From Oscillospiraceae bacterium (GTDB taxonomy: Bacteria > Bacillota > Clostridia > Oscillospirales > Acutalibacteraceae): a stretch of DNA of 64,000 nucleotides. Location: positions 1-64,000 of the forward strand of contig SVOS01000003.1 in the NCBI GenBank assembly GCA_015066245.1, given 5' to 3'. Within the stretch, counting starts at the first letter, position 1; each line of letters opens with the position of its first letter. Position numbers and translations under genes: made by a program. Below the pieces are notes generated by a model, which ran no database searches, was not told the DNA's origin, and worked only from the letters and a program-made list of their open reading frames with translations. This document shows positions 1 to 6,339 of this stretch, piece by piece.

Positions 1-273
1 TTGGCAGACTTTCACCCTGACGAGTATTACACAGTTTATACTTTAACTGATGAGGACTTTATCTCTAACAAGAACAGATTCCCCTTTACACTTGTCTTCA
101 ACAACACATCTGCAAATCGTGGCAGATTCTACAATGTTTATGGTTATATTGCTCTGACATATACACCTGAAGGTTCAACAACATCTGTTACTGATTATTA
201 CTTCAGCAATATGCAGACACTTAACTTCCACGAAGCAGGTACAAATACTTCCGCTGCTTACAATAATAACTAA
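1..273 (+). CDS. C-terminal fragment of a protein of unknown function, possibly surface exposed (truncated by window edge)
   Basis: ORF open at the left edge, ending TAA at 271-273; Thr/Ser/Asn/Tyr-rich sequence, no family recognised. Confidence 0.5.
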   Translation: MADFHPDEYYTVYTLTDEDFISNKNRFPFTLVFNNTSANRGRFYNVYGYIALTYTPEGSTTSVTDYYFSNMQTLNFHEAGTNTSAAYNNN

Positions 274-275
274 AC

Positions 276-304
276 TTGACAAAAGTGTTATTGTATAGTA
301 TATT
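276..304 (+). promoter_or_regulatory. sigma-A promoter for the 46-aa peptide gene
   Basis: TTGACA (276-281), 17-nt spacer, TATATT (299-304); short leader to an AAGGTG Shine-Dalgarno at about 314-319 and ATG at 326. Confidence 0.75.
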
Positions 305-325
305 ATAAGATGAAGGTGATATTAT

Positions 326-466
326 ATGAAGATTAAATATGAGTCTCCCTTGATGGAAGTATATAAGTTTTCGTTAAAAATAGAGACGGTGACCGCCAGC
401 AATACATTAGAGAATCCCGGCGGTGAAAATACACGTCCTGTTGAAGATGATGATCCATTTGCATAA
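326..466 (+). CDS. 46-aa candidate RiPP-like precursor peptide MKIKYESPLMEVYKFSLKIETVTASNTLENPGGENTRPVEDDDPFA
   Basis: ORF below the supplied track cutoff; good RBS, consensus promoter upstream, strong terminator immediately downstream; N-terminal YxxP motif; next to HprK-like/PqqD-like/ABC/NTP_transf_5 genes. Confidence 0.7.
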   Translation: MKIKYESPLMEVYKFSLKIETVTASNTLENPGGENTRPVEDDDPFA

Positions 467-478
467 TCAATAACTTTG

Positions 479-511
479 AATGGCGGATACATTGTATCCG
501 CCATTTTTGTA
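479..511 (+). terminator. Rho-independent terminator after the peptide gene
   Basis: AATGGCGGATAC-ATT-GTATCCGCCATT perfect 12-bp stem followed by TTTTG. Confidence 0.85.
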
Positions 512-605: not shown

Positions 606-1700
606 ATGAATAAGAAAATTATAATCTCTGTTTTATGCTTGATTCTAGCAGTATTTTCTGTTGTTTCATTAATATCTGCATCAGCCGGTTCTTTCGTTGA
701 ATATAACGATTGGAAACTTGAAATACCTTCTATGACCAATAAAACAGAGTATTATATTGGTGGATATAATGGCAGTGATTCTAATCTCGTTATTCCTGAC
801 AGAATCCTTGATAGAACCATTGTGAAAATCAACGAATATGCTTTTGCAAATAATGAAAAGCTTTTGTATTGTACTATCCCTGATACAATAATCGAAATTG
901 ACAATTACGCTTTTGATACTTGTACAGAATTAAGGAATATTACCATTCCATCTTCTGTTGAAAAGCTCGGCAAGGGTGTATTTTACGATTGTTCTTCAAT
1001 CGTTGAGCTTAAGATAGAATCAAAGTCACAACTTGATTCTATTCCTTATGTGTGTTTTGGTAACTGTACTTCTATGCTGACAGCTGATATTGGTCAGGGT
1101 GTTGAATCTATAGCTGACTATGCTTTTGGTAACTGTGCTAACTTAAGATATATAACCATCTATCCTTCTGTTACCGAGATTGGTCAGAATGCATTCTATA
1201 ATTGCAATAATCTTACCATCCGAGCTTACAGAGATTCTTATGCTCTGCAGTATGCAATAGAGAATAATATTCCATACAAAGATCTTGGTGTTTATGTTGA
1301 GCCTACTGAGCCTGCATCTACTGTTTCTACAGAGCCTTCTGAGACTGATACTACTGTAGTGACAACACCTTCGACTACTACTGTAACACCTTCAACTGTT
1401 GTTACAGAGCCTACTGAAACTTCCGTTTCCACAACGGTTTCTGAGCCTATCGAAACCACCACGGTGGATAAATTGCTTTACTTTATGGGTGATGCAGACT
1501 TAGACTACAGAATTACCATTAAGGATGCAACAAGAATTCAGAAGCACCTTGCAAATATTTCACTTCTTGGCGAAACACAGCTTATTATCGCTGATGTAGA
1601 TGAGAATGCTAATGTAACAATTAAAGATGCTACTTTGATTCAGAAATACCTGGCAGGGTTTGCGAACGTTTCTTTTGTCGGTACAGAGGTTTATCTCTGA
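606..1700 (+). CDS. Secreted LRR_5 (BspA-like) repeat protein with C-terminal type I dockerin
   Basis: Signal peptide; repeats such as EINEYAFANNEKLLYCTIPDTIIEIDNYAF; Thr/Pro linker; dockerin repeats GDADLDYRITIKDATRIQKHLA and ADVDENANVTIKDATLIQKYLAGF. Confidence 0.85.
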   Translation: MNKKIIISVLCLILAVFSVVSLISASAGSFVEYNDWKLEIPSMTNKTEYYIGGYNGSDSNLVIPDRILDRTIVKINEYAFANNEKLLYCTIPDTIIEIDNYAFDTCTELRNITIPSSVEKLGKGVFYDCSSIVELKIESKSQLDSIPYVCFGNCTSMLTADIGQGVESIADYAFGNCANLRYITIYPSVTEIGQNAFYNCNNLTIRAYRDSYALQYAIENNIPYKDLGVYVEPTEPASTVSTEPSETDTTVVTTPSTTTVTPSTVVTEPTETSVSTTVSEPIETTTVDKLLYFMGDADLDYRITIKDATRIQKHLANISLLGETQLIIADVDENANVTIKDATLIQKYLAGFANVSFVGTEVYL

Positions 1701-2401
1701 TGCCAAAGTATAAGATTGCTGATGTAGTCGTAGAGATGGTTCAGGACTACAAAGAGACTGCCCATTGGTATTCCGACTATATTTATAACGGTGATGAAGA
1801 AGCAGCTTTCGCGATAAAGGCACCGCAGACGGACATTGATTATTTTGTTGAGGTCGGCAAGGATATCACACCTGCCGTCGCTGAGAATATGGTGCTCTGC
1901 AATATATTTAACAGAAGATTGCTGAGATATGGCGGTAGTTATCTGCATTCCTCTGCACTTTTGTATGAACACAAAGTGTATCTATTTTCTGCAGGCAGCG
2001 GAGTAGGCAAGTCAACCCATACCAAAAAGTGGCTTGATAGATTTCCTCAAAAGGCATCAGTTATTAATGATGACAAGCCTTCCTTCAGGATAATTGATGG
2101 TAAGTGCATTGTGTACGGAACTCCTTTTTCGGGAGGAACCAATCTACAGATAAATACCTCTGCTGAACTTGGTGCTATTGTATTTATCGAAAGGGCAGAG
2201 GAAAACTCCCTCACAAAACTTAATGCTTCTCAGGCTATTAACCTGATGCTTTCTCAGGCACCAAAAATATTCACAGAAAAAGCAGGAGAAATCCAGCTTG
2301 ATTTATATTCTCAGATTCTCACTTCCTATCCCGTATATCTTCTTAAGTGCAATATGGATGACAGTGCACTGGATGTATCTATGGGAATTCTTACAAGTTG
2401 A
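1700..2401 (+). CDS. HPr kinase-like (HprK/PEPCK-type) P-loop protein
   Basis: Walker A SAGSGVGKSTHTKKW; length and context typical of HprK-like proteins of RiPP loci; ATG overlaps preceding TGA (TGATG). Confidence 0.75.
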   Translation: MPKYKIADVVVEMVQDYKETAHWYSDYIYNGDEEAAFAIKAPQTDIDYFVEVGKDITPAVAENMVLCNIFNRRLLRYGGSYLHSSALLYEHKVYLFSAGSGVGKSTHTKKWLDRFPQKASVINDDKPSFRIIDGKCIVYGTPFSGGTNLQINTSAELGAIVFIERAEENSLTKLNASQAINLMLSQAPKIFTEKAGEIQLDLYSQILTSYPVYLLKCNMDDSALDVSMGILTS

Positions 2402-2415
2402 AAGGACAATTTACC

Positions 2416-2679
2416 ATGAAAATCAAAGATAATTACATGTTAAGAAAAGTTGCTGATACCTTCGTTGTTGTGCCCGTTGGTGAAGCAGTTGCAGAATTCA
2501 ACGGAATGATTAACCTCAATGAGGTTGGTGCTTTCTTATGGCGTCAGCTCGAGTCCGAAACAACTTTTGAGTCTGTTTTGCAGGCTGTACTTGCTGAATA
2601 TGAAGTTGACGAATCTGTTGCAAAAGCTGATCTTGAGCGTTTTGTCAAAGAGCTTGAGGAAGCAAACCTTATAGTTTAA
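2416..2679 (+). CDS. PqqD-like protein (candidate RiPP recognition element)
   Basis: About 87 aa; pattern GEAVAEFNGMINLNEVGAFLWRQLESETTFESVLQAVLAEYEVDESVAKADLERFVKELEEANLI is typical of PqqD; ATG at 2416 with AAAGGA RBS preferred over the TTG at 2398. Confidence 0.85.
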   Translation: MKIKDNYMLRKVADTFVVVPVGEAVAEFNGMINLNEVGAFLWRQLESETTFESVLQAVLAEYEVDESVAKADLERFVKELEEANLIV

Positions 2680-2693
2680 CTATATAAATTTTA

Positions 2694-2728
2694 ACGGGGT
2701 GAAAATATTTTCGCCCCGATAGATTTTT
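2694..2728 (+). terminator. Intrinsic terminator/attenuator between the PqqD-like and ABC transporter genes
   Basis: CGGGGTGAAAA-TA-TTTTCGCCCCG hairpin followed by a T-rich tract (ATAGATTTTTTATT). Confidence 0.7.
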
Positions 2729-2755: not shown

Positions 2756-4492
2756 TTGAAAAAAGGTTCTAAACTCAAAAATGCCTTTTCAAAGCTTGCG
2801 GATACAGCAGCTTTAAAATGGATACTTAACAATTCCAAAAGACAGTGGATTTTTATACTTATTCTTACGCTGATAAACGTACTTATAGCATGTTGCAGTA
2901 TTGCAATTTCATATATGCTCAGGTTTGTTATCAACTCTGCAACCGACTCAAGTATTACAGATCCCGGTGTTAAGATGGATAATATCTTTTTCTGGGGCAG
3001 TATTTTTATAGGGCTTACTCTCTCTCAGGTTGTATCAAGGATTCTCAGCAATCACCTGGTATTCAGAATATCCGCGAGACTTACAATTGATATCAAGTCC
3101 TCTCTTTATCATAAAATGCTCAAAAAGAGCTATGCTCAGATTTCAAAATATCATACCGGTGAGCTTTTAAACAGACTTAACGATGATATAAGCAGTATTG
3201 CTCATGCCATTACAACATTGGTGCCAAATATTGCCTTTATTGTAGTCAAGCTTGTGGGTATTTTTGTTGTGCTTTTCAGCATTGATGCTTTGTTCACATT
3301 GGTGTTTATCGGTGTTGGAGTGGGAGTGTTTGTTTTTTCGTCCCTTTTCAAAGGTGCTATGAAGTCGTATCACAAGCAGATTATGGAGACAGATGGAAAA
3401 ATCCGCTCTTTTATGCAGGAAACTCTGGCAAGCCTTATGGTGGTTAAGGTGTTTAAATCCGAAGACAAGGTTGAGAAAACTGCCTCTGACCTTCAGGAAG
3501 ATAACTTTAGACGTAAGGCGAAACGTAATATTATTTCTCTTACCACAACTTCTGCTTTTAACCTTGCTTTTAATGCAGCGTATCTCTTTGGACTGTTTTT
3601 CTGTGCGGTAAAAATTGCAAACAACGACCCTGTAATTACTTACGGTACACTTTCTCAGGTGCTTTCTCTTGTGTCACAGATAAGTGTTCCCATTAACTCT
3701 CTTACTACGATTATTCCTCTTTACTATACTGCACTGGCTTCTGCCGAGCGTATAATGGAGATAGAGGATATAGAGGATGAGCCTCTTGTCAACGATGATA
3801 CTCTGGATGTAAAAGAGATTTATTCCAACCTTACTTCCATTGAGTTTGATAACATCTCCTTTAAATATGACCGAGACGAAATTTTTGATTCTACAAGTCT
3901 TACTGTTAACAAGGGTGATTTGCTTGTTATGACGGGTATTTCGGGTATTGGTAAGAGTACGTTGACCAAGCTCTTACTGGGAGTATTTCCTTTGTCTCAG
4001 GGCGAGATTTACTTTAAGCTTTCTGACGGCAGCAAGATTTCGGTTGATGCCAACACACGCAGGTTCTTTTCTTATGTGCCTCAGGGCAATTTTCTGCTTT
4101 CGGGTACTCTCAGAGACAACATTTCTTTCATAAAATCCGATGCTACAGATAAGGAAATCTGGGATGCCATAAGATTTGCGTGTGCAGATTTTATCGAGGA
4201 GCTTCCCAATGGTCTTGACACTGTAATCGGTGAGAAGGGATTGGGTCTTTCTGAGGGACAGGTGCAGCGTGTGGCTATTGCTCGTGCAATTCTCTCTGAT
4301 GCACCTATTGTTTTGCTTGATGAAGCTACATCTGCTCTGGATGAAGCAACTGAGCTTAAGCTTCTTGAAAACATCAAAAATCTCTCCAATAAAACTTGTA
4401 TACTGATTTCTCACAAAAAGGCGGCTAATGAAGTCTGCAACAAAGAAGTGAGAATCATTGATAAAAAGATTACGGTAATTAACAATGATTGA
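2756..4492 (+). CDS. ABC exporter, fused permease and ATPase (MsbA/LmrA-like)
   Basis: Six-TM N-terminus; Walker A GISGIGKST; signature LSEGQVQRVAIARAIL; Walker B IVLLDEATSALD; no C39 peptidase domain; TTG start with GAGGAA RBS. Confidence 0.9.
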   Translation: MKKGSKLKNAFSKLADTAALKWILNNSKRQWIFILILTLINVLIACCSIAISYMLRFVINSATDSSITDPGVKMDNIFFWGSIFIGLTLSQVVSRILSNHLVFRISARLTIDIKSSLYHKMLKKSYAQISKYHTGELLNRLNDDISSIAHAITTLVPNIAFIVVKLVGIFVVLFSIDALFTLVFIGVGVGVFVFSSLFKGAMKSYHKQIMETDGKIRSFMQETLASLMVVKVFKSEDKVEKTASDLQEDNFRRKAKRNIISLTTTSAFNLAFNAAYLFGLFFCAVKIANNDPVITYGTLSQVLSLVSQISVPINSLTTIIPLYYTALASAERIMEIEDIEDEPLVNDDTLDVKEIYSNLTSIEFDNISFKYDRDEIFDSTSLTVNKGDLLVMTGISGIGKSTLTKLLLGVFPLSQGEIYFKLSDGSKISVDANTRRFFSYVPQGNFLLSGTLRDNISFIKSDATDKEIWDAIRFACADFIEELPNGLDTVIGEKGLGLSEGQVQRVAIARAILSDAPIVLLDEATSALDEATELKLLENIKNLSNKTCILISHKKAANEVCNKEVRIIDKKITVINND

Positions 4493-5690
4493 ATCCAACA
4501 CTAAGTCTGAAAATAACCTGAGATATTTTTTGATGCTGGTTGCATCTGTCCTTAACGAAACAGAGCCTCCTTTGCCCGATGAAAATATTAATTGGCAAGA
4601 GGTGTTTGAGCTTGCGTCTTCTCAGTCTATGGCAGCTGTAGTGTTCTATGGAGCAGATAAGCTCCCTGACTCACTAAAGCCCGATGGAAATGTGTATGCT
4701 TATCTTAAGCAGATGTACGCAGAGCAGCTTGTAGTTGATATGAATCTTAGTGTAGAGACTCAACGTATGTTGAATCTCCTTAGTGACAACGGCATCAGTT
4801 GTATGCCCCTAAAAGGAATTGTCACAAAAAACGATTACCCTCTTGTTAATCTCAGAAGTATGACGGATGTTGATATCCTTTGCGATGACAGAAAAAAAGC
4901 TGAGTCGGTTTTTCTATCCGAGGGCTATGTGCGTGAGAGTGTAGGGGAGAAGGATTCATCTTTCAGAAAAAATGAGATTCTCCATTTTGAAGTTCATTCA
5001 TACCTTGTCAACAATACTTCACCGGCATATAGATATTTTAATAATGTTTGGAAAAGGGCAATAACTGACGAAAAGACCAATATAGTAAAAATGAATCTTG
5101 ATGATACATATATTTATATGCTTGAGCATCTTGCTGGGCATCTTGAGTATGGTGGTGCAGGTGTCAGAATGTTTGCTGATGTATATATGTTTCTTAAGAA
5201 ACACAGCGACAAACTGAACCAAACTGAGATATCCGAGGTGCTGAGTTCTATAGGTCTGGATGAATTCGAAAGATTTATTCTCAAATTAGTCAACAACTGG
5301 TTTTCAGGTGATACTATCCCTGATGTAAGTTCTGATTATTCCCGTTTTATTTTGCTTTCAAGCACATTCGGTTTGTCCAGATATACTTTTTTGTCTGATT
5401 CTATCCGTAATAGTGGCGAAAATTCTACCCCTAAGAGCAATGGGTTACGCCGCATTCTCAGAAAGTTGTTTCCTTCTTTAAAATGGATGAAACTGAGATT
5501 CAAAGCAGTGGATAAGATTTCAGTTTTGTATCCTGTTTTTGTGGTCGTGCATTGGTTTGACCGACTTTTCATAAGACGCGATGTTAAAACCTACAATCTT
5601 AAGAATAACTACTTTGTGTCTGCTGATTCTGATGAAGCCAAAGAGCTTGAGAGAATATATGCTGAGATGGGCCTTAATAAACGATACTGA
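4485..5690 (+). CDS. Nucleotidyltransferase-fold family protein (NTP_transf_5 type)
   Basis: GISCMPLKGIVTKNDYPLVNLRSMTDVDILCDD matches the LKG...Y...R...DxDxL pattern; overlaps the ABC gene by 8 nt. Confidence 0.8.
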   Translation: MIESNTKSENNLRYFLMLVASVLNETEPPLPDENINWQEVFELASSQSMAAVVFYGADKLPDSLKPDGNVYAYLKQMYAEQLVVDMNLSVETQRMLNLLSDNGISCMPLKGIVTKNDYPLVNLRSMTDVDILCDDRKKAESVFLSEGYVRESVGEKDSSFRKNEILHFEVHSYLVNNTSPAYRYFNNVWKRAITDEKTNIVKMNLDDTYIYMLEHLAGHLEYGGAGVRMFADVYMFLKKHSDKLNQTEISEVLSSIGLDEFERFILKLVNNWFSGDTIPDVSSDYSRFILLSSTFGLSRYTFLSDSIRNSGENSTPKSNGLRRILRKLFPSLKWMKLRFKAVDKISVLYPVFVVVHWFDRLFIRRDVKTYNLKNNYFVSADSDEAKELERIYAEMGLNKRY

Positions 5691-5697
5691 GGTAAAA

Positions 5698-6339
5698 ATG
5701 AAAGAGTATAAGGTTATTATCTGGGACTTTAACGGTACCCTTATAGACGATATTGATGCAGCTCTTGCGTCGGTTAATGATATGCTAAAAAGGCGGGATT
5801 TGCCGCTGATTAATTTTGAGCAATATGCAAGTTACGTTGATACACCCATTATTAAATTCTACGAGCATATTTTTGATGACTTGTATTCCATGGACTTTGA
5901 TGTTATAGCCCGTGAATTTAACGCAGGATACGAGAATCATCTGAAGCCCAATGCGGTTATGGACAAAGCCCATGAAGTGTTGGAATATTTTAATTCCAAA
6001 GGCAAGCTTCAGACAGTTATTTCAGCTACCCATATTGATAAAGTATTAAATCGTTTGGGCGAGTTTGGACTTAAAGATTATTTTGACAGAATTCTTGCTC
6101 ACAATAATCTGATTGCTGAGGATAAAACCCATCTGGCTGTTGCGTATTTTAAAGAAAAAGGCATTTCGCCTTGTGACGCAGTTGTTATAGGCGATTGTGT
6201 TGCCGACTATAAAATGGCAGAGACCTTAGGCTGCGATTGTATACTCACAACTCAGGGCCACCAAAGCTGCAAGGAATTTGCAGAGACTGATGCTCTGGTT
6301 ATAGATTCTCTTGTTGAGCTTAAAAATTTAATAGCATAA
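5698..6339 (+). CDS. HAD-superfamily phosphatase (phosphoglycolate phosphatase-like)
   Basis: VIIWDFNGTLIDD motif I; VVIGDCVADYKMAETLGCDCI motif IV; ATG 5698 preceded by GAGGT; the listed 5581 start would overlap the upstream gene by more than 100 nt. Confidence 0.85.
   Translation: MKEYKVIIWDFNGTLIDDIDAALASVNDMLKRRDLPLINFEQYASYVDTPIIKFYEHIFDDLYSMDFDVIAREFNAGYENHLKPNAVMDKAHEVLEYFNSKGKLQTVISATHIDKVLNRLGEFGLKDYFDRILAHNNLIAEDKTHLAVAYFKEKGISPCDAVVIGDCVADYKMAETLGCDCILTTQGHQSCKEFAETDALVIDSLVELKNLIA

Follow-up and report, generated by a model that had tools for sequence, protein, structure and literature searches.

Linear Polyphosphorylated Peptides (LPPs) are the described system closest to the locus analyzed here. 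They were first described in 2026, and for none of them is a final product, function, or role known (PMC13381572). In the lppAKBSDN cluster of Paenibacillus alginolyticus, the leader carries the motif YxxPxVLxHQxIxFETxxS, phosphorylation occurs at core S3, and cleavage is by LppS (PMC13381572). Similar components are found in clusters for lasso peptides of the paeninodin and pseudomycoidin type: an H-K-D-D catalytic motif has been described for lasso-peptide kinases (PMC9266682), and hexose addition on phospho-Ser has been linked to PsmN, a protein of the pseudomycoidin cluster with a nucleotidyltransferase annotation. Lasso leaders of Ruminococcus albus and R. flavefaciens carry YNKPSxEK, and the ruminal lasso cores listed start with Gly (PMC7533575). 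A YxxP-type motif has also been reported for the leaders of PQQ precursors (PMC13381572).

The subject of this analysis is a short ORF near the start of a 64,000-nucleotide stretch of DNA (hereafter the window; positions 1–64,000 of the forward strand of contig SVOS01000003.1, assembly GCA_015066245.1, Oscillospiraceae bacterium, a Ruminococcus-like gut organism). An earlier note had read it as a precursor peptide gene with its own promoter and terminator. Comparison with relatives leads us to the view that the gene very probably codes for an LPP-like precursor that gives rise to a linear, phosphate-modified RiPP. The material consists of draft assemblies, largely derived from metagenomes; L-numbers label the loci compared and C-numbers the contigs of the window's own genome, and genome-wide statements on the latter come from sequence and profile searches of an assembly that is 94% complete.

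Gene signals around the short ORF

The ORF (positions 326–466, forward strand, 46 aa, sequence as quoted in the earlier note) is unannotated and starts 53 nt past the stop of a large gene. The promoter, RBS, 46 codons, and 12-bp terminator that the earlier note had listed can all be read in the sequence where it placed them (Table 1), and the promoter is the best-scoring promoter-like site within the first 6.5 kb. The same layout of promoter, RBS, ORF, and terminator is repeated at the syntenic place in L002, L034, and L035, where the promoters score 11, 11, and 10 of 12. All four loci share TTGACA-N17, with TATATT, TATAGT, or TAAAGT at −10, and a terminator, and they are the four clusters that have an intact kinase and no SpI leader peptidase. 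In most loci examined elsewhere, the peptide gene lies 10–35 nt 3′ of a giant gene, lacks a convincing promoter of its own, and in most cases has a hairpin on its 3′ side; such terminator hairpins stand 3′ of nearly all relatives examined, with differing sequences. Because most other peptide genes trail the giant gene without a recognizable promoter, a stand-alone transcript is mainly a trait of the window subclade: the separate transcript proposed earlier is predicted for the four closest clusters, where both signals are kept, but not for most other loci. A second terminator-like hairpin lies between the RRE and ABC genes of the window (2695–2718), and because of it the two halves of the cluster may be expressed at different levels.

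Table 1. Features of the short gene and the cluster downstream (window coordinates)
Feature	Position	Strand	Basis or remark
3′ end of large protein gene	1..273	+	5′ part cut off by contig start; stop 271–273
Sigma-70-type promoter TTGACA-N17-TATATT	276..304	+	11/12 consensus; TTGACA 276–281, TATATT 299–304
RBS AAGGTG	313..318	+	7 nt 5′ of ATG 326; gaaggtgatattat identical in L002
Predicted leader, residues 1–24, MKIKYESPLMEVYKFSLKIETVTA	326..397	+	Putative RRE-binding motif Y5xxP8 and E11; family alignment
Ser25 codon, candidate phospho-acceptor at leader/core border	398..400	+	Ser at Y+18..20 in 64/69 relatives
Predicted core, residues 25–46, SNTLENPGGENTRPVEDDDPFA	398..463	+	Low conservation, acidic
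Intrinsic terminator	478..506	+	Stem AATGGCGGATAC/GTATCCGCCATT, 12–13 pairs, 3-nt loop, T-rich tail
Secreted BspA-type LRR + dockerin protein	606..1700	+	Pfam PF13306, PF00404
HprK-like peptide kinase (LppK-like)	1700..2401	+	H83, K104, D124, D125; fold match
Discrete RRE (PqqD family, LppB-like)	2416..2679	+	PF05402 E=5e-19; N35, D72
MsbA-like ABC exporter (LppD-like)	2756..4492	+	PF00664, PF00005; no C39 peptidase domain match
NTP_transf_5 protein (LppN/PsmN-like)	4485..5690	+	PF14907 E=4e-47
HAD-family phosphatase	5698..6339	+	PF13419; cluster membership uncertain

A peptide family under selection

A BLAST search with the 46-aa peptide against 300 genomes of the family recovered only the query itself. 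Plain BLAST failed because the peptide is too short and too divergent, and synteny and a profile were used instead. Relatives were reached through the neighboring ABC transporter, with 27 stretches taken, most of them from those 300 genomes; scanning genome contigs with the NTP transferase added a single useful relative. The locus order that recurs is giant ORF, short peptide, LRR protein, HprK-like protein, PqqD, ABC, and NTP_transf_5, often beside Rex and isocitrate dehydrogenase, and the gap that precedes the cluster holds short ORFs for related peptides, with starts such as YESP, YISP, YEAP, and YVSP and with acidic tails. Relatives of the kind for which the earlier note had suggested a tblastn search thus exist, but that search would have looked negative, as plain BLAST over the 300 family genomes did.

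A profile built from the peptides found by synteny has at least one match (E≤0.1) in 131 of the 161 genomes of the genus. When a broader profile was run on 396 genomes of the order, 58 had a match at E≤0.001, representing 34 of 168 sampled genera, the E-values outside the genus being modest for peptides of about 45 residues. As a negative control, 399 genomes sampled across the phylum were searched at E≤1e-4, and the own genome alone matched; the family profile had no match in 144 kb of shuffled sequence, and tblastn against plasmids had none either. The distribution of these profile matches suggests that the family is concentrated in the order Oscillospirales. For 27 family members, neither Pfam nor NCBIfam returned a match, and comparing the profile with solved structures, the LppA leader complex included, gave none either.

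Within the family, dN/dS is 0.04–0.25 in 9 of 10 peptide pairs, with synonymous sites saturated in the remaining one, so the peptide is under purifying selection. The syntenic relatives, the low dN/dS, and a profile family that extends across the order together establish the ORF as a real gene, as the earlier note had held, and a chance ORF was rejected on dN/dS and the existence of the family. When RRE-containing loci were fetched via the ABC gene rather than the peptide, 11 of 24 had a peptide gene at most 7 kb upstream, several of these loci being incomplete; many family peptides lie far from any RRE gene.

Leader, core, and border serine

Alignment of 69 relatives gives the leader pattern YxSPEΦEΦ…, with Tyr in 68, Pro in 68, and Glu at Y+6 in 58 of them, a hydrophobic residue at +5, and a drop in conservation beyond Y+20. 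A near-invariant Ser stands 18–20 residues past the Tyr (S25 in the window peptide), compared with Ser in 0–33% of the peptides for three-residue segments that do not overlap Y+18..20, a frequency that is partly circular in that the Ser belongs to the profile by which most members were found. Eleven peptides were first found through synteny, and most of these have the Ser as well. The cores of the family contain 24% D+E and 2.3% K+R and are rich in G, P, and S, and Cys occurs in none of the 69 predicted cores.

The conserved N-terminus and variable C-terminus of the 69 relatives, together with RRE, kinase, exporter, and NTP-transferase genes downstream, support the earlier reading of the product as a putative precursor peptide. 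The split into leader and core that had been proposed fits this pattern as well, but its border is moved from residue 20/21 to about residue 24/25.

Comparison of the cluster with LPPs

Sequence searches of the kinase against the PDB returned nothing useful, and fold comparison was needed: its AF2 model (pLDDT 90) matches PEPCK and HprK structures in Foldseek at E of about 1e-6, and its four invariant catalytic residues are the H-K-D-D set of lasso-peptide kinases. In the alignment of the RRE to LppB (9x8z), N33 and D70 of LppB, which are Tyr-type recognition residues, correspond to N35 and D72, with the offset of 18 for the LppB construct taken from the N33–D70 spacing. Among RREs of the genus, D is found in 26/26 and N in 18/26; the RRE of paeninodin, PbaB1, has G and Q at these positions. 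The HAD phosphatase is present in L002/L059, L034, and L035 and absent from other clusters of the genus. A C39-type bacteriocin was ruled out, there being no C39 domain and no double-Gly leader.

The window resembles the P. alginolyticus cluster in its order A-K-B-D-N, with the LRR-dockerin gene inserted between precursor and kinase. L145 (from another family of the order; peptide, a 339-aa protein, HprK, RRE, SpI, ABC, NTP_transf_5) reproduces A-K-B-S-D-N, and L152 is the same minus the last gene. Further likenesses are the Tyr-type YxxPx(hydrophobic) leader with a variable C-terminus; the shared RRE residues; the HprK-like kinase with intact catalytic residues, the NTP_transf_5 protein, and the MsbA-like exporter; and the border Ser, 18–20 residues past the Tyr here and 18 in the LPP motif. 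There are also clear differences. The signature VLxHQxIxFETxxS is missing: the window peptide reads LMEVYKFSLKIETVTAS, the family consensus has no HQ or FET, and only the distance to the Ser is similar. The cluster lacks a SpI peptidase gene, the precursor has no match among Pfam or NCBIfam models, and the family is linked to giant secreted proteins, whereas LPPs are linked to capsule loci. Because the FET signature is missing, we call the locus LPP-like rather than an LPP locus proper.

Candidate peptidase and kinase homologs in sister clusters

Although no SpI (SipW-like) leader peptidase is encoded in the window cluster, sister clusters encode, between RRE and ABC, a protein of 150 aa in which S-M, H-R, and G-D motifs are invariant. 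Pfam gives this protein no name above cutoff; by its motifs and position it is a candidate SpI-like Ser/His/Asp peptidase such as LppS. Two homologs (118 and 101 bits) are encoded elsewhere in the own genome, on contigs C32 and C30, each adjoining the gene of a large secreted protein; for the two SpI-like peptidase genes of the own genome at L165:7582–8052 and L166:476–922, these neighbors measure 1065 and 1923 aa.

Many sister clusters (L036–L049 except L042 and L046) have no intact kinase, and in L050–L057 the P-loop and the DD pair are gone from the HprK homolog. A kinase encoded in the cluster therefore cannot account for phosphorylation throughout the family. Pseudo-kinase-like homologs at L050:924–1595, L051:7905–8576, L056:7332–8003, and L057:6892–7569 lie between SpI and ABC.

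Pairing with giant secreted proteins

The C-terminal 90 aa encoded at the very start of the window share 43–53% identity with the corresponding ends of large proteins, of up to about 2500 aa, whose genes occupy this site in L002/L059, L034, and L035. Among the 62 family genes with enough upstream sequence, 45 lie directly 3′, within 80 nt, of an ORF on the same strand with 450 codons or more, compared with a background of 49/354 other genes in the same loci (14%). Those giant proteins that can be seen whole reach about 2600 aa and mostly have an N-terminal signal-like segment, secretion being judged by eye from the N-termini; some contain Listeria-Bacteroides repeats or laminin-G-like domains. 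The unit of giant gene, peptide, and LRR protein also occurs away from RRE genes (L107, L108, and L109). This pairing suggests, as a hypothesis, a surface-protein-linked role for the family peptides.

The own genome contains at least four further, weaker family peptides, at L106:611–727, L156:7291–7422, and L105:7066–7412; the last of these intervals holds two peptides, immediately 3′ of the gene for a secreted protein of 700 aa. It also has a second PqqD/RRE gene (L102:7212–7475, contig C26), 72% identical to the window RRE, near two LRR proteins and without kinase or exporter, as well as another set of kinase, ABC exporter, and NTP_transf_5 genes that lacks an RRE gene and adjoins a large secreted protein of LRR-like type (L060:4799–8869, contig C33).

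The excess of family genes directly after large genes, and modules such as L107 and L109 that have no RRE gene nearby, would fit an unmodified intracellular companion of the giant protein (a chaperone, assembly, or immunity factor) whose nearness to RRE clusters is secondary. We consider this improbable: the conserved YxxP leader, the RRE residues that match it, and a Ser at a fixed position are traits of an RRE substrate, and in the window subclade a promoter and terminator of its own separate the peptide gene from the giant gene.

Lasso peptide, PQQ, and small RNA readings

A paeninodin-type lasso precursor, with cyclase and B2 protease encoded elsewhere, would account for the kinase with H-K-D-D, the discrete RRE, the NTP_transf_5 protein, and the ABC exporter, all common to such clusters. 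The best NCBIfam match of the RRE is lasso_PqqD_Bac, although far under cutoff (38 vs. 80 bits), and the YNKPSxEK leaders of R. albus and R. flavefaciens (PMC7533575) point the same way. However, no B2 leader peptidase (Transglut_core3) scores above cutoff in the own genome, with its assembly 94% complete, and no macrolactam cyclase (Asn-synthase-like C protein) is among the genes of the cluster. Nor does recognition agree, since the window combines a YxxP leader with N/D in the RRE instead of a WxxP leader with the G/Q of paeninodin. The predicted core starts with Ser, not with the Gly of ruminal lasso cores, and the modified Ser is expected at the core start rather than at the C-terminus. 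A lasso peptide was rejected for want of a B2 match above cutoff in the own genome and of a cyclase in the cluster and for the wrong RRE residues, and the version with distant enzymes is very unlikely. PQQ biosynthesis shares the YxxP-type motif of PqqA and the PqqD fold of the RRE, but the radical SAM protein PqqE and all other pqq genes are missing from the window cluster.

That the ORF is fortuitous and only the short transcript predicted between promoter and terminator matters, as a small RNA, is scarcely credible and already contradicted at the protein level, given the dN/dS values, a protein conserved while terminators diverge, a properly spaced RBS, and a family found by protein profile.

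Proposed pathway and implications

The reading as a phosphate-modified, LPP-like precursor thus draws on gene order, the YxxP leader with matching N/D in the RRE, the H-K-D-D residues and HprK/PEPCK fold of the kinase, the spacing of the Ser, and the co-occurrence of peptide and RRE. Counted against it are the lack of HQ/FET, the lack of SpI in the cluster, the loss of the kinase in sisters, the peptides far from an RRE, and the fact that no LPP has a known product or function. In the pathway that we propose, Y5xxP8 of the leader would dock on the discrete RRE, and the HprK-like kinase would phosphorylate the border Ser, most likely Ser25. The NTP_transf_5 protein would extend this phosphate with a sugar or nucleotide. 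The MsbA-like ABC protein would export the acidic peptide, and the leader would be cut off in trans by an SpI-like peptidase whose gene lies outside the cluster.

A broader and distinctly tentative picture, which we think rather unlikely to hold as a whole, is that RRE-read, Ser-modified acidic peptides, forming a large family with multiple copies per genome, serve bacteria of the order as partners dedicated to giant secreted proteins. Each peptide would be co-encoded with its own surface protein, one shared cluster of RRE, kinase, and exporter would serve several of them in trans, and the modified peptide would decorate the surface protein or help to assemble it.

LPP-like machinery is now linked to an undescribed precursor family in a gut-associated order. 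The comparison suggests which LPP parts may be dispensable, namely SpI in cis and the kinase, with the pseudo-kinase clusters as a natural comparison set, and from the frequent pairing with giant secreted proteins comes a concrete hypothesis on the role of such peptides that can be tested.
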